A stretch of 64,000 bases of DNA from Tridacna crocea (lineage: Eukaryota; Mollusca; Bivalvia; Cardiida; Cardiidae). The translations under genes and the position numbers were made by a program. The DNA is taken from assembly GCA_943736015.1 (NCBI GenBank), contig OX031064.1:41963361-42027360 (forward strand), given 5' to 3'. Below, piece by piece: positions 1,798 to 45,882 of this stretch (position 1 is its first letter; each line of letters opens with the position of its first letter). The notes under the pieces are model-generated. The model did not search any database, was not told the origin of the DNA, and saw only the letters and a list, made by a program, of their open reading frames with translations.

Positions 1798-2955
1798 AAG
1801 AGAGTGAGGCTATGACTCTCTCTCTGCCATCTTGTACCTGCAATAAAACCGACCCAATTGCAAAGTCCGATGAATCAGTATTTAGGATGAACTGGCCACC
1901 ATCATTCAGTGGGTAGCCCATTACTTCTGGACTGATCAAAGCAGCCTTTAGACTATAAAGGAATCTTGACAACTTTGGGTCCAGATAAACTGTTTTCCTT
2001 TCTTGGTTAGATCCACCATAGGCCTTGCTTTTTTTGCAAAGTCTTGTATGAACCTGCGAAAGTATGAACACATAGCAACAAACTGTTTTACATGTTTGGG
2101 ACATTTAGGGGTGGGCCATTCCACAATTTTGGCAATGTTTGTTGGACTTGGCTTGATACCGTCTGAGGACACGACGTGTCCTAAAAACGTAACTTCTCTC
2201 TGCAGCATCTCACATTTCTCTGGCTTTAGTTTTAAACCAGCTTGCGTCAATCTTATAAGGACTTTTTCCACTCTGCTGAGATGCTCTTGTACATTTCTGG
2301 CGAATATGATTATATCATCAATGTAGATGATGCAGGTCTGCCCTTGTAGACCTTGTAGGGCAAGTTCCATGGTCCTTTGGAAGGTGCTGGCAGAATTATT
2401 CAAGCCAAATGGCATTTTTGTTATTTCGTATTGCCCAAACTTGCATGCAAAAGCAGTTTTCGGTATATCTTCTCCCCTCACTGGAATCTGGAAGTAACCG
2501 CTGGTTAGGTCGAATGTGTTGAGGAGGATTGATCCTGAAACGGCATCTAGGCAATCCTGAATTCTTGGTAAAGGGAAAGCATCTGGTGTAACTAACTTGT
2601 TTAACTTGCGATAATCTATGCATGGCCTAATTCCGCCCGACTTCTTCTTAACCAAGCATAAAGGTGACGACCAAGGAGGTGTACTCTTCCGTGCCACTTT
2701 TTGTTGTAGTAACTAGTCTATAGCTTTTCGCTCCTCATCAGCATAGGCCATCGGTACTCTTCTTGGCGGTTGCTTTATAGGTGGGGCGTCACCAGTATCA
2801 ATTGAATGCTCGGTTAGGTGTGTGCAACCAAGATCCCATTCATCTTTTGAAAGGACATCGCGGTATTTCTGCAATAGGTTCGCTATCGCAATCTTGTCTC
2901 TTTCCGTGCAATCTCTTGTGGACTTTTCGAATAGTTCTTTAAGTTGGTCTGGTAT
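1798..2955 (-). pseudogene. Gypsy pol: reverse transcriptase and RNase H N-terminal half
   Basis: This encodes an RNA-dependent DNA polymerase of Ty3/Gypsy type. Visible motifs in order are the RT leader PPIKQPPRRVPMA, the substrate loop PPWSSPLCLVKKKSGG, the CIDYRKLN block, DLTSGYFQIPV with the first catalytic Asp, MPFGLNNSASTFQ, the catalytic YIDD box at 2314-2325 and LGHVVSSDGI. The RNase H start, NTDSSDFAIGSVL, follows after a one-base frameshift at about 1958 in a run of T. A TAG at 2713-2715 interrupts the leader. Ahead of it the frame continues directly from the protease segment, so protease and RT were one polyprotein. Confidence 0.92.
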
Positions 2956-3925
2956 TTATGGCATTGGCAAAGCTTCTGACTGGCAGCTCGAACCGTATTG
3001 CTGAGTTTCCTTCTTCTGTAGCTTTATTCTACGAATGTTTGTGTTGTTGTGCTCGCTAGGATCCTCTTCATTCATAATGATCAATGGCTCTTCGAATACT
3101 GGCTCGGCATGTCCAACAACTGAATTCTGTCTGAGTTCCACCTCGTTTTTGAAAGGGTTTAAAATACGAATTTTGCTGGTCACATTAGTCTGGTTGTCAA
3201 TCAGGGTAGGCGCCATCTGAAGTGGGTATGTGTCTCTGAAGCTTTCAGTTGGCTCAACGATGAATGCATTTAGGCTTAGAACGTCATCTTCCTCGGTTCT
3301 GTCGATGAAAACATCCACCAATGCCTCACTGTGTCCTGGAATAGTGTAGTTGTCTGCTAATGTGACCTTCCTGCTACCTTCTGTGGTGCTCATGTTTATG
3401 CATGGCACTTTGTGGCCCTTGAGTCTTATAATCCCTTCGCTCATTATAATATCCGCTGGGCCGCTCTGATCATTTTGAAGGATATCCATCCCCAGCAAGC
3501 CGTCATCCTCTATTTGTGCAACTATTATCTCTTTCTGTAGTTTAACTGGTCCCAGGCGGATTTCGAATAGACCTTTTCCCATTTCTTTTATTGGGGTTCC
3601 ATTTGCATTCACAACATTGTTTGATTGTTTCACCTGGGGTCTGCTTCCAGGGTCTATTCTGCGGTATACTTTGTCTGATATTACTGTTTTAGTGGCTCCA
3701 GTATCAGCAGTAAAGAGTACTGGGTTTCCTTCTATGAGTCCCTTTACATACAGACTGTTATACCCAGGTCGTTGCCGTCTGCTAAATTCATTCCCATGTG
3801 TTGTCTGTGTGTGGCCATTAAAACTTTGGGCCTCGCCTCGACCACAGGTCTCGGCCTCTAGCAGTTTAAATGATTCTGACTTGGTTTGTTTTGCTGTCTT
3901 GGGCTGTGGCTTGCATCTTTCTTAC
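2956..3925 (-). pseudogene. Gypsy pol: aspartic protease and spacer
   Basis: A retropepsin-type protease processes the Gag-Pol polyprotein. The active-site motif DTGA is encoded at 3694-3705 within VLFTADTGATKTVIS, followed by a flap region and the conserved LLGMDIL near 3480-3500. A spacer of about 150 residues (SEALVDVFIDRTEEDD, then NPFKNEVELRQNSVVGHAEP) leads to the RT and is typical of the domain between protease and RT in this group. The frame ends at a TAA at 2956-2958, beyond which the same frame continues into RT, so that stop is a mutation and not the real end. Confidence 0.88.
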
Positions 3926-5424
3926 CTTCTTTACCATATGCGAAACAGGCATTCTCTCTTTTTTCTTTCCTTCCATCTAAGTTAACAATTTTATTAAGCT
4001 TTGAAATCACCTCCAGCAGTGCTGCATGGATGGGGTTGGATGCATTGCCAATCTTTTCAGGTTGCCTCGCATCTTTTACTTGTTTTTCGAAGATCTTTTT
4101 ATTTCGGCATACCCTTGTTTCTGTCCTTTCTAGTGTGTCAAAGTCAGATTCGGAATCTTCCTCTGACTCGCTGTCTTGGTAGATCTTTCTGGTGAACCGT
4201 TTCATTTTTCTCTCGTTATAGGGGTCTCTTTCTTTGGTTTGTCTTACGTGGGTGAATCTCACAACATGGAACACAGCTTCGTCTATTGTTTTCGGATCTT
4301 TGTTATATTCGACCTCGAATCTGGCATCATGGTCTTTGAGCCCGTCTAAAAAAACGTCTCACCAAATCTTCTTGTCTAACTTGATTTTCTCTTGATTTGT
4401 AGGCCTTTGAATAAAGTCTTTTAAGTTCTGCGGCATATTCTTCAGCTGTCTCTCCATTTCCCTGATCACGCTTGCTGAACCTCGCAGCATACGACTGGTG
4501 TGTCTCTATTACTCTGAACTGGTTTGTCAACTCTGCTGTTAATTCTGCAAAGTCAAATAGTTTCCATCTAGGAAGCTGAGTATAGACAAATTCTCCTGCA
4601 GGTCCCTGCAATCTTGGTAGGATCTGGTCAATCATCTCATCTTCGTCCCATCGATTTCTGTCTGCAAACACCTCGAAGCGGTTAATCCATACTGACCAAT
4701 CCTCCCTTCCAGTGAAAGTTGGTATCTGTATGTCACCATAGTTAGTTTGTCTTTGTGGTCTAGGTGGTTGGTAATTTGGATGATGATACTGGTTGCAAAA
4801 CCTATGTGCTTGTGGAGGTGGTATTCTATCCATATTATGCCTTTGTCTTTCACTGATATAGGAAAGTCCAGTTTGATAGTCATTTCTTGGGCAGAGGGGT
4901 GCACTTATGATTTGTGTATGATAGCCTCTCTCCTGTCTCGTGGGTAGTCTGTCACCATTTCTAATTTGGATGGTATGGTCATATCTGTTGTGTAAGTTGC
5001 TATCTTCTGTGTTCTGTTCAAAGGTTGCTTGTCTGTTTGAATACATAGAGGGTCCGTCTGTTGTACAAGTAATTGGCTCTGTGAAATCCTTGGATGGTGC
5101 CGCTGTAGTAATGCAGTTAAAACTGGGTCTCTTATTGGTATCGGGTTCTCCCCAAAAATGCTTGCTTGGCAGCACATCTCCGCCTGCGGTTTCTGTCTCT
5201 CTTTGCGGTATCTGAGTGTAGGGTGAAGAGGGCTGTCGACTGGGCGTGTAGCCAGTAGTGCTCACATCCTCTGGTTGTCTTTAACCATCATGGGAGTTGA
5301 CTTCAAGTGGTGCGCATTCTGTATAATTCTTATCATTATTGGTTGTATACGGTATCTGACTGTGACAGGCTCCATCATTTAACTGTTGCTCTGTCTGTTC
5401 AGGTGCGCCTTTTCTTCTACCCAT
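3926..5424 (-). pseudogene. Gypsy gag with degraded zinc knuckle
   Basis: This is the capsid/nucleocapsid region of the element. The likely start is the ATG whose first base is 5424 (MGRRKGAPEQTEQQ), 68 nt downstream of the primer-binding site. A TAA at 5281-5283 breaks the N-terminal part. The central capsid-like block has IPTFTGREDWSVWINRFE and LLPRL-type helices, a common Ty3 gag signature. A seven-A run at 4348-4354 shifts the frame; the second part (DARFEVEYN, FHVVRFTHVRQ) continues in the other frame. Near 3905-3950 a CCHC knuckle can be recognised as CFA.GKEG, but its second Cys reads Tyr, the His is absent and the frame is lost just after it. Confidence 0.85.
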
Positions 5425-16755: not shown

Positions 16756-17904
16756 CTAAAACCAGTGCGTAAAACCAAAAACGTCCTTTACTTCAGCTTT
16801 TATCAGTGTGCGCAATATACCAGTCACGAATACATCCTCTATATTCATGTAGTCCAAATATCTCGCCATTTTGTAGATTTCCATCGCTTTCGATCCGGGA
16901 ACAACGTAAGTATTGCCACATGTATATGTGGGATAAACCGGAAACGGAAATGACTTCGACGCCACTTTCCATCGACCAGTACGTAGAACTGCTGCATTTT
17001 CTTGAGTATGACCGTAAAATGTCGCTGTTTCAGTTTGAGAAGCATTTTTCAACATTTCAATCAGATTATGTACATGAACAAAAACGTCCTCATCAGCTTT
17101 TAAGATATATCTAGCTCCTGGGCAGAATTGTGCCACCCATCGAATTCCAGTGATAACCTTGTACGTTAAATTGAAATAAGAATCTTCAAAATCTGCTTGA
17201 ATTATATCATGATAAGTCTTACTTTCATCTTTCACTATCATATTCATTAACTGTGATTTACCCCTACCGAACAGGAACACCAACTTCACTTTGTCTGGAA
17301 GAACTCCGACTTTTGGCCACATACCCGGATTTGCAGATCGTCCCCATGTCTTTCTAATGGCTTCACGCGTATCTATATGTGAATGGACAGATAACACCAT
17401 AATAAGGAGGAAAGGATCGGGAGTCTTAGTGCAGATGTTCTTTCCATTGAGTAAAAATGGAAAATCGAACAGTGATTTCTGTTTGACTGCTGAGCCTACC
17501 TTGTAAAATTTTTTCAGCCATTTTGTATTTGGTGTCACATTGTATTTTGTCTGAATTTCTCTGTCAGTCTCTAGAATATTCTCTGCGCTACTTGTGTTGG
17601 ACGTGTTCGACTTAGTATTACTCAAAGCGTCCAGTTTAGTCGAAATTGTTAAACCTCTCCAATTATGATTTGCCCCTGTTTTTATTCCTTGACTCTCACT
17701 GTGTGCATTACGAATCAATGAGGTCACAGGCATTTTTACTGACAGGTAAACTCTGTCACGTACGGATGAGTTGATACCACGTGATTCAAGATTGTCCTGA
17801 GACAGGATTGTCGTTAGCACTGTCGTAGAAACACTTATTGTGATGACTACAACAAACTTTCTTGTTTGGCAGCAAAGTTTTCTGATGTTTTTCAGGCAGA
17901 TCAT
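16756..17904 (-). CDS. beta-1,3-galactosyltransferase-like (GT31) glycosyltransferase
   Basis: 382 residues with type II Golgi topology: a short cytoplasmic Lys/Arg/Cys tail, one signal-anchor helix (about residues 17-34), a Ser/Thr/Asn-rich stem to about 160, then the catalytic domain. GT31 landmarks in order are REAIRKTWG (180-188), FLFG (210-213), DIIQADFEDSYFNLTYKV (233-250), the DxD-type metal/UDP-sugar motif KADEDVFV (269-276), YPTYTCGNTYVV (324-335) and EDVFVTG (356-362). N-glycosylation sequons occur in the stem and at N245. Enzymes of this family add Gal or GlcNAc in beta-1,3 linkage in the Golgi; the donor and acceptor cannot be told here. The length fits the family. The coding region is in one exon. 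An acceptor-like TTTCTTATTTCAG ends at 17932, so at least one upstream exon (probably 5' UTR) is likely. Exact orthology is uncertain. Confidence 0.93.
   Translation of the reverse strand: MICLKNIRKLCCQTRKFVVVITISVSTTVLTTILSQDNLESRGINSSVRDRVYLSVKMPVTSLIRNAHSESQGIKTGANHNWRGLTISTKLDALSNTKSNTSNTSSAENILETDREIQTKYNVTPNTKWLKKFYKVGSAVKQKSLFDFPFLLNGKNICTKTPDPFLLIMVLSVHSHIDTREAIRKTWGRSANPGMWPKVGVLPDKVKLVFLFGRGKSQLMNMIVKDESKTYHDIIQADFEDSYFNLTYKVITGIRWVAQFCPGARYILKADEDVFVHVHNLIEMLKNASQTETATFYGHTQENAAVLRTGRWKVASKSFPFPVYPTYTCGNTYVVPGSKAMEIYKMARYLDYMNIEDVFVTGILRTLIKAEVKDVFGFTHWF

Positions 17905-26711: not shown

Positions 26712-26765
<54 letters not shown>
26712..26765. repeat. TA dinucleotide microsatellite
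   Basis: About 26 TA units, matched by another TA run at 26981-27002 on the other side of the hammerhead inverted repeat. Confidence 0.95.
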
Positions 26766-26767
<2 letters not shown>

Positions 26768-26809
26768 AAAAATCAACTGGTTCCGGCTCAAGGATATTAC
26801 ATAAAAAAC

Positions 26810-26975
26810 AAAAATAACATCACATGGGAGTATATATCAGTAACATTTATTGCCAACCGGTTTCGCTTTCGCTCATCAGGGCGATGATTTATTGTTATTG
26901 TTGCCCTGATGAGCGAAAGCGAAACCGGTTGGCAATAAATGTTACTGATATATACTCCCATGTGATGTTATTTTT
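26810..26975. repeat. perfect 73-bp inverted repeat containing hammerhead motifs
   Basis: 26810-26882 and 26903-26975 are exact reverse complements over 73 bases with a 20-base loop. Each arm contains the hammerhead core, one per strand. Such head-to-head copies fit the inverted pLTR pieces left by Penelope-like elements, which are known to carry hammerheads; that assignment is inferred because no Penelope RT is seen nearby. Confidence 0.9.
26898..26938 (+). ncRNA. hammerhead ribozyme motif, minimal type I
   Basis: All core elements are in place. Stem I pairs TTGTTGCC (26898-26905) with GGCAATAA (26931-26938), 8 bp including one G-U. CTGATGA is at 26906-26912. Stem II is GC-GAAA-GC (26913-26920). 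GAAA is at 26921-26924. Stem III is the self-complementary ACCGGT (26924-26929), and position 17 is T26930, so self-cleavage is predicted between 26930 and 26931. A loopless stem III would work best as a dimer, as in other minimal animal hammerheads. The minus-strand copy (CTGATGA complement at 26873-26879) has the same core but a weaker stem I. Confidence 0.85.
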
Positions 26976-27002
26976 CTTTATATATATATATATATATATA
27001 TA

Positions 27003-43289: not shown

Positions 43290-45882
43290 TTTTAGCTCAC
43301 CTGAGCACGAAGTGCTCATGGTGAGCTACTGTGATGGTGCTGTGTCCGTCGTGAGTTGTCCGTCGTCAACTTTTTACCTTGTGTACGCTCTAGAGGCCAC
43401 AGTTTTGGTTCGATTCTCATAAAAGTTTGTCAGGATATTTGTCTCGATGAAATCTCGGACGAGTTCAAAAATGGGTCATGCGGGGTGAAAAACTAGGTCA
43501 CTAGGTCAAATCTTAGAAAAACATTGTGTACGTTCTAGAGGCCACATTTTCAGTCCAGTACTCATGAAAGTTGGTCAGGATGTTTGTCTGCATGATATCT
43601 CGGACGACTTTGAAAATGGGTCATGTGGGGTCAAAAACTAGGTCACTAGGTCAAATCTTAGAAAAACCTTGTGTACGCTATAGAGGCCACTTTTTCAGTC
43701 TGATACTCATGAAAGTTGGTCAGGATGTTTGTCTGGATGATATCTCGGACGACTTCGAAAATGGGTCATGTGGGGTCAAAAACTAGGTCATTAGGTCAAA
43801 TCTTAGAAAAACCTTGTGTACGCTCTAGGGGCCACATTTTCAGTCGATACTCATGAAAGATGGTCAGGATGTTTGTCTGCATGATATCTCGGACAAGTTC
43901 GAAAATGGGTCATGTGGGGTCAATAATTAGGTGAATAGGTCAAATCTTAGAAAAACCTTGTGTACGCTCTAGAGGCCACATTTTCAGTCAGATACTCATG
44001 AAAGTTGGTCAGGATGTTTGTCTGAATGATATCTTGGACGACTTTTGAAAATGGGTCATGTGGGGTCAAAAACTAGGTCACTAGGTCAAATCTTAGAAAA
44101 ACATTGTGTACGTTCTAGAGGCCACATTTTCAGTCCAGTACTCATGAAAGTTGGTCAGGATGTTTGTCTGGATGATATCTCGGATGACTTCGAAAAGGGT
44201 CATGTGGGGTGAAAAACTAGGTCAAATCTTAGAAAAACCTTGTGTACACTCTAGAGGCCACATTTTCAGTCAGATACTCATGAAAGTTGGTCAGGATGTT
44301 TGTCTGAATGATATCTTGGACAACTTTTGAAAATGGGTCATGTGAGGTCAAAAACTAGGTCACTAGGTAATATCTTAGAAAAACCCTGTGTACGCTCTGG
44401 AGGCCACATTTTCAGTCCAGTACTCATGAAAGTTGGTCAGGATGTTTGTCTGGATGATATCTCAGATGAGTTTGAAAATGGGTCATGTGGTGTCAAAAAC
44501 TAGGTCACTAGGTCAAATCTTAGAAAAACCTAGTGTACACTCTAGAGGCCATATTTTCAGTTGGATACTCATGAAAGTTGGTCAGGATGTTTGTCTGCAT
44601 GATATCTCAGACAAGTCCAAAAATGATTCATGTCGGGTCAAAAACTAGGTCACTAGGTCTAATCTTAGAAAAACCTTGTATACGCCCTAGAGGCCACATT
44701 TTCAGTCTGATACTCATGAAAGTTTATCAGGATGTTTTCCTGGATGATATCTCAGACAAGATTGAAAATGGGTCATGTGGGGTCAAAAACTAGGTCACTA
44801 GGTCAAATTTTAGAAAAATCTTGTGTACGCTGTAGAGGCCACATTTTCAGTTCGAAACTCTTGTAAGTTGGTCAGAATGTTTGTCTTGATGATATCTCAG
44901 ACAGGTTCGAAAATGGGTCATGTGGGGTTTAAAAACTAGGTCACTTGGTTAAATCATAGAAAAACCTTGTGTATGCTCTAGAGGCCACATTTTCAGTCCA
45001 AAACTCTTTAAAGTTGGTCAGAATATTTGCCTTTATGATATCTTGGATGAATTTGGAAATGGGTCATGTGGAGTCAAAAACTAGGTGACCTGGTCAAATG
45101 TTAGAAAAACCTTTTGTAGGCTCTAGAGGCCACATTTTCAGTCCAAAACTCTTGTTAGTTGGTCAGAATGTTTGCCTTGATGATATATTAAACGAGTTTG
45201 AAAATGGGTCATTGGGGGTTAAAAACTAGGTCACCAGGTCAAATCTTAGAAAAACCTTGTATATGCTCTGGATGCCACATTTTCAGTCCAACACTTGAAA
45301 ATTAGTCAGAATGTTTGCCTTTATAATATCTTGGATGAGTTTGAAAATGGGTCATGTTGGGTCAAAAACTGGGTCAATAGGTCAAATGTTATAAACACCT
45401 TTTGTATGCTCTGGAGGACACATTTTCAGTCTGATACTCCTAAAACTTGTTCATAATATTTGTCCTGGTGATACCTTGGATGAGTTTGAAAATGGGCCAT
45501 GTGGAGTCAAAAACTAGGTCAATGGGTCAAATATTAGAAAAACCTTGTGTACACTCTAGAGGCTACATTTTCTGCCTGATACTCTTCAGACTTGGTCAGA
45601 ATATTTGTTTTGGTGATGTCTCAAAAGAGTTTGATAATGGGTAATTGTCGGGTCCAAAACTAGGTCACTTGATGAAATCTTAGAAAAACCTTTGCACACT
45701 GTAGAGGCCACATTTAAAGTCATATACTCATGAAACTTGGCCAGAATGTTTCTTATTGATATCTCAAAAGTGTTTGATGATGGGTAATGTCTGATAAAAA
45801 ACTAGGTCACTGGGAAACTAGATGGTGCATGTTTGGTCAATAAACTCAGGTGAGCAATTTCAGGGCCATCATGGCCCTCCGG
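43290..45882 (+). mobile_element. tandem-core element E4 with about 17 units of 145 bp
   Basis: Starts TTTTAGCTCACCTGAGCACG and ends CTCAGGTGAGCAATTTCAGG with the hairpin GGGCCATCATGGCCCTCC. The unit (CTCTAGAGGCCACATTTTCA, AAAGTTGGTCAGGATGTTTG, GGGGTCAAAAACTAGGTCAC) is best preserved at the left and decays to the right. Repeated short frames inside are by-products of the unit and not genes. Confidence 0.7.

Follow-up and report, generated by a model that had tools for sequence, protein, structure and literature searches.

A minimal hammerhead in Tridacna crocea lies within a short head-to-head insertion of a Penelope-like element, probably made by asymmetric twin priming

How does a minimal hammerhead ribozyme motif come to lie in a perfect inverted repeat between two TA repeats, as it does in the 64,000-nt stretch of Tridacna crocea DNA analysed here (hereafter the window)? 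Our reading, to which we give a probability of roughly 0.7, is that the locus is a complete, very short head-to-head insertion of a Penelope-like element (PLE) in (TA)n, in which two pLTRs were fused at their 5'-truncated ends by asymmetric twin priming on one RNA. The evidence, read from sequence throughout, lies in the family to which the locus belongs, the architecture of its members, a near-exclusive rule of one tail per pair, coupled arm lengths, shared private alleles and the type of joint. As an element the window insertion is ordinary; it is informative on an insertion mechanism that is unsettled.

The arms of the inverted repeat, at 26810-26882 and 26903-26975, are reverse complements of one another at 73 of 73 positions and are bounded by a mismatch between 26976 and 26809. 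Direct reading of the sequence places a minimal type I hammerhead core on either strand of this repeat. On the plus strand, CTGATGA (26906-26912) is followed by stem II, GC-GAAA-GC (26913-26920), by GAA (26921-26923), and then by A15.1 (26924), CCGG (26925-26928), U16.1 (T26929) and H17 (T26930), where the numbered labels follow the standard hammerhead numbering. Stem I can form between GGCAATAA at 26931-26938 and TTGTTGCC at 26898-26905, giving 8 bp that include one G-U, and cleavage is predicted after T26930. A preliminary description of this locus had claimed both the perfect repeat and the ordered motif with its 8-bp stem I and cut site, and both are borne out. Its further claim that each strand encodes a core holds for the core itself, but the minus-strand stem I extends for just 3 bp (GCC/GGC) before a mismatch, because its 5' strand sits in the loop. 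The plus strand presents the conserved core, stems I and II, and the reduced stem III of the minimal PLE-type type I hammerhead. Allowing up to three mismatches, the 20-base core has two matches in the window, both exact, and none in 100 shuffles.

The insertion spans 26766 to about 26979, the minus-strand tail at 26766-26809 being part of it and lying beyond the limits first described (26810-26975), and its two arms start 117 and 135 nt from the tail end. Its features are as follows.

26714-26765, no strand: left (AT)26 microsatellite on the target side (tandem repeat finder)
26766-26809, minus strand: 44-nt tail of the left PLE copy (26766-26804 match the 39-base tail pattern exactly)
26810-26882, minus strand: left arm, the pLTR 3' region with the hammerhead core (on the element it covers the stretch between 117 nt and the tail end)
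26847-26882, minus strand: hammerhead core with 3-bp stem I, predicted cut 26855/26854 (from sequence; core match 26860-26879)
26883-26884, no strand: 2-nt filler GA at the joint between the copies (junction listing)
26885-26975, plus strand: right copy, comprising the loop and right arm with the tailless end (91-base matches in the genome; maps from 135 nt)
26898-26938, plus strand: minimal type I hammerhead with stem I of 8 bp, stem II GC-GAAA-GC and stem III A-CCGG-U, predicted cut after 26930 (from sequence, core match and folds)
26976-27002, no strand: end of the tailless copy (CTTT) passing into the right TA repeat (from sequence and flank comparison)

A covariance search had been put forward as a check on the motif, with a score below threshold to count against it, and that is how the search turned out: no Rfam hammerhead family matched the region, either at the gathering threshold or at E up to 10, where the matches were mostly to hairpin-like miRNA families and far under their thresholds. 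We regard this negative as weakly informative, because viral contig L006 has a hammerhead-like core whose stem III is longer, and this core likewise misses the threshold (19.6 bits to Rfam Hammerhead_HH9, for which the threshold is 52). The same CTGATGA-GC-GAAA-GC-GAAAC core is found in two IMG/VR viral contigs, at L006:4559-4578 (minus strand) and L007:714-733 (plus strand), in both of which stem III is longer and apparently complete.

The preliminary description also held that one RNA must choose between the long hairpin and the ribozyme fold. RNA of 26810-26985 folds into a single 79-bp hairpin at -139.1 kcal/mol (z -26.5), against -9.5 kcal/mol for the hammerhead pairing in a 57-nt piece whose best fold reaches -12.1 kcal/mol; in the window copy, therefore, the hairpin should win. 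The ribozyme of this copy is probably locked inside the 79-bp hairpin and idle, and the copy is best seen as a remnant.

Searched against the 1.05-Gb source genome, the 166-bp hairpin gave at least 106 matches, and at least 10 other loci with matches in both orientations, with 40 of 230 candidates scored in each case. The 91-bp loop plus right arm recurs at 100% identity in at least 29 other places, many of them paired and 0.5 to 5.9 kb across. This agrees with the suggestion that the insertion is young; gene conversion, which had been offered alongside, may have occurred but is not needed, given that both arms look as though copied from one template. At up to three mismatches, a 45-mer of the arm 3' of the predicted cut has 131 genome sites and a 39-mer of the tail has 70, the control giving 0 for each. 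The core is retained in subfamilies with other stem II loops, and some older copies have core changes. Stem II offers no covariation, since the subfamilies vary the loop yet retain the closing G-C and C-G pairs.

Some relatives elsewhere in this genome have a coding body, with a GIY-YIG endonuclease and a reverse transcriptase (RT) fold, that is flanked on its two outer sides by the arm. Open frames are present in long copies, among them L035 and L018, the L035 product being 772 aa. GIY-YIG (PF01541) lies at residues 680-768 of these 772, at 23.5 bits for a Pfam cut-off of 22.6. RVT_1 (Pfam) is below cut-off in L018 and in the homologue P0002, and is absent in the L035 product. The model of the L035 product (pLDDT 86) has telomerase reverse transcriptases as its six best PDB fold matches, but the TM-scores are low (0.31-0.36 by query), and retron RTs and viral RdRps follow closely; by sequence, the L035-type protein has no match in the PDB. 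EN-containing PLEs are characterised, according to the available parts of two papers (PMC11167929, PMC3846280), by an ORF that holds both RT and GIY-YIG, by pLTRs in inverted orientation, by a tail and by targets rich in AT. Here we find a telomerase-like RT, as judged from the model, with GIY-YIG in the same ORF, an inverted pLTR with a tail, and an AT-rich target. We conclude that the long relatives of the window hairpin are a PLE. The earlier view of the locus as a head-to-head pLTR remnant of such an element between TA repeats has held up, and the suggested genome-wide search with the arm has found long relatives with a 772-aa coding body.

In L035 and L018 the N-terminal part is encoded in one frame and the RT-endonuclease part in another that overlaps it, so that expression of the element may involve a frameshift or two ORFs. 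The close protein relatives P0002, P0009, P0016 and P0070 are filed under clam bacterial symbionts (Thiodiazotropha, Solemya velum symbiont) and are probably host DNA inside symbiont assemblies; no relatives of the PLE protein were confirmed in prokaryote-genome and viral contigs.

An element of the DNA transposon or MITE kind, flanked by terminal inverted repeats and bearing a hammerhead-like motif by chance, might also produce inverted ends and short forms that resemble internal deletions. We give this explanation next to no credence. The inverted part varies from copy to copy, from under 100 nt to 2.9 kb, and the ends differ by the tail, so that fixed, symmetric terminal inverted repeats are not what these copies have. 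Furthermore, single-ended insertions exist, the body encodes RT and GIY-YIG, and none of the copies examined was a fixed-end relative that bears a transposase.

Several other features lie elsewhere in the window. A short repeat with the palindromic core GGAGAAAATGCTGGTAACCAGCATTTTCTCC, present in more than 20 diverged copies in both orientations scattered over 13171-57261, looks like a MITE family. A satellite array at 43376-45811 consists of about 17 copies of a 145-bp unit. Broken LTR-retrotransposon-like pieces occupy 1948-5265 on the minus strand (an RVT_1 match at 1948-2697 and a weak gag-like match at 4327-5265), and an open frame at 16756-17904, also on the minus strand, has a Pfam Galactosyl_T domain.

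Mapping of the copies onto one unaltered genomic copy reveals a common architecture. A paired insertion consists of two copies back to back and pointing outward, each with the common 3' end on the outside and its own 5' truncation point on the inside; the shortest arms are 30 nt and the longest exceed 3 kb. Nineteen joints were displayed, 18 of them interpretable; 13 of the 18 overlap (12 by 1-5 bp, L027 by 13), and the remaining five have 0-2 extra bases, the window joint being GA. In all 20 of the pairs displayed, AT repeats directly flank the insertion on either side, and any target site duplication would be hidden within the (TA)n. There are also single-ended insertions, without a tail (L020, L023) or with one (L029, L054, L056, L057, L073, L074, L075), all of which have TA at the 5' junction.

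At two loci, tandem hammerhead units lie 3' of the head-to-head joint: 11 units of about 73 nt each at L015:558-1371, and three at L016:425-653. Such units would suit a small non-autonomous retrozyme spreading via circular RNA made by its hammerheads, which the preliminary description had entertained. Animal retrozymes are 150-450-bp tandem repeats with canonical type I hammerheads, as described in the accessible portion of PMC7229834; here repeats of that kind are not seen, tandem units having turned up at just these two loci, stem III is minimal, and the ends are PLE ends. We find no support for a retrozyme and consider it very improbable.

The distribution of tails among the paired copies is far from random. 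Pairing was done mechanically on 100 listed of the 131 arm sites, which gave 33 head-to-head pairs. An intact tail is present at exactly one end in 30 of the 33 (17 left, 13 right), the other three being without a tail at up to three mismatches. L011 and C1:2772603 carry a 34-nt tail at one end, bringing the one-tailed total to 32 of 33, and the nested pair C1:2771205 has no tail at either end. Independent ends would give one-tailed pairs in at most half of cases, and 32 of 33 has P about 4e-9. The pairs at C6:58815962 and C6:59531941 share a flank, which suggests that they are probably one duplicated insertion. Outside this set, L066 is an exception to the rule, being tailed at both ends, as is the rearranged locus L065. 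The 34 unpaired listed ends comprise 20 with an intact tail and 14 with none. We also considered two unrelated insertions as the source of a pair; random tails and lengths would result, and as a general explanation this fails.

For arm lengths, which were read by hand, we tabulated 39 pairs, one-tail pairs only. Left out as nested, tandem or ambiguous in their tail are L015, L016, L017, L026, L037 with L050, and the inner piece of L031; L041 was dropped because it duplicates L040, and L065 and L066 because each has two tails. Within the table, the tailed arm of L028 (3140) is an estimate beyond the reference slice and L039 is ambiguous by 8 nt. Both arms are shorter than 165 nt in 19 pairs and both are longer in another 19, with a single mixed pair (Fisher 3e-10). 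Within the 19 long pairs the arm lengths correlate (rho 0.57, permutation p 0.004). The mechanically found pairs taken alone, 28 without the C18 pair, divide into 11 short/short, 16 long/long and one mixed. The tailless arm is the longer by at least 20 nt in 17 of the 39 pairs, and the tailed arm is longer by that margin in eight. Fourteen of the 19 long pairs have their longer arm at the tailless end (p 0.06); L028 departs clearly from this, its tailed arm being much the longer.

Sequence differences between the arms were compared in 12 clean pairs, setting aside L026 and L037 as nested (eight arm differences each, several of them common to other copies) and not including L035. Twenty rare alleles are common to both arms of a pair, and 22 of the 26 differences have one allele that is absent from all other copies. 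Because the lengths are coupled and private alleles are shared, both arms of a pair appear to trace to one template, or at least to one source locus. Later arm-to-arm conversion could explain the shared alleles, but not the lengths or the tails.

Two other routes to paired arms have to be weighed here. In self-priming, or snap-back, a single cDNA or antisense RNA loops back and serves as its own template, yielding a palindrome; it was proposed for bdelloid Penelope elements from palindromes at inverted joints (PMC3846280, as far as its available text goes), and near-identical arms are what it would produce. Yet a copied arm can neither exceed its template nor gain a tail, and we see tailless arms that outrun their partners by 20 nt or more in those 17 of 39 pairs; nor does snap-back predict a rule of one tail per pair. 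The natural insertions speak against self-priming as the general route, and we think it quite improbable. The second is twin priming on two RNAs from the same source locus, for example by a dimeric enzyme holding two RNAs. Shared alleles and the far longer tailed arm of cases such as L028 are explained by it, but on its own it accounts for neither the coupled arm lengths nor the exclusive use of two start sites, making it unlikely in our judgement.

Asymmetric twin priming on one RNA, our preferred reading, would proceed as follows. The element's GIY-YIG endonuclease would cut both target strands in the AT repeat, and each free 3' end would prime reverse transcription on the same template RNA, one strand starting at the distal site (the end of the 44-nt tail) and its partner at a site some 44 nt upstream. 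Both cDNAs would extend inward, each to its own stopping point, and be joined by end joining; the hammerhead would be the pLTR's ribozyme, carried along with the insertion. Since the tailless arm starts upstream, the excess of longer tailless arms among the long pairs (14 of 19) is what two enzymes moving one behind the other along a single RNA would tend to produce. In vitro, the purified protein of an Anolis PLE cuts and extends both strands of an AT-rich target and has two adjacent internal RT start sites that bound the tail, according to the available sections of PMC11167929. No difference in start site between the strands was noted in those sections (PMC11167929), and this counts against an asymmetric choice.

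The window copy belongs to the 19 short pairs. Fifty short ends were compiled (39 from pairs, 11 from single-ended copies), of which 38 lie at 88-130 nt, 23 of them at 117-130; they sit by hammerhead stem I, downstream of the palindrome GTAGCAACGTAACGTTGCTAC. In L039 and L042 the joint coincides with the hammerhead cut site or falls a few bases from it, which is what a cleaved template would predict, though two cases prove nothing. At L026, a nested, older locus, a tailed pLTR lies upstream of and close to N-terminal coding sequence in the same orientation, so start regions could be present close to both ends of an mRNA. The short-class template probably itself ends in the pLTR; perhaps the short class arises by priming at the tail site of the mRNA's 5' pLTR, with synthesis running to the RNA 5' end. 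We would extend this only tentatively, at somewhat under even odds, to the proposal that PLE integration is asymmetric twin priming, with one tailed and one tailless copy per event, and that the same reaction at the 5' pLTR writes tiny hammerhead hairpins, which may account for many scattered minimal hammerheads.

The window core and the minimal hammerheads of PLE pLTRs are alike in being type I, with a reduced helix III, and in lying in pLTRs; the latter are also dispersed in animal genomes and are thought to cleave as dimers (PMC7761336, PMC6155905, in the parts available). With its palindrome ACCGGT, stem III is similar to that of amphibian hammerheads, a single pair with a palindromic loop; those ribozymes are most active as dimers in the account given in the accessible portion of PMC7229834. 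Unlike the minimal PLE hammerheads described, the window core sits within a perfect inverted repeat whose origin can be explained. The role of dispersed minimal hammerheads is called a mystery in a review (PMC7761336, available part), and doubled or single pLTR insertions offer a simple origin for them.

How PLEs integrate, and why inverted copies have an 'optional' tail, is unsettled. Self-priming was favoured in 2013 (PMC3846280), and in 2024 two start sites and both-strand cutting in vitro were reported, without a link to inverted copies in the available text (PMC11167929). The bdelloid EN-containing PLEs (Pen1-6_Av), as presented in the accessible text of PMC3846280, differ from the clam element, in which exactly one tail is present in 32 of 33 mechanically found pairs and half of the tabulated pairs are pLTR-only hairpins; the term 'hammerhead' is absent from that text. 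The Poseidon PLE of Anolis (PAc) is alike in its minimal pLTR hammerhead, its AT-rich cutting and its RT and GIY-YIG in one ORF, and two RT start sites bound its tail, as we propose for the clam element, whereas its ORF starts at stem II and the clam hammerhead ATG opens only nine codons (PMC11167929, available sections). We found no report of one-tail-per-pair coupling in those sections or in the openly licensed literature searched. Dozens of insertions in one genome separate the models by their ends, arm lengths and alleles, and make a specific asymmetric twin-priming model testable.

In twin priming of LINE-1, both target strands prime on the element RNA, and internal priming results in an inversion. 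The route that we propose for the clam element is alike in that both target strands would prime on the element RNA. Unlike in LINE-1, the start sites of both primers here would be fixed and close to the 3' end, and the outcome would be an inverted duplication.
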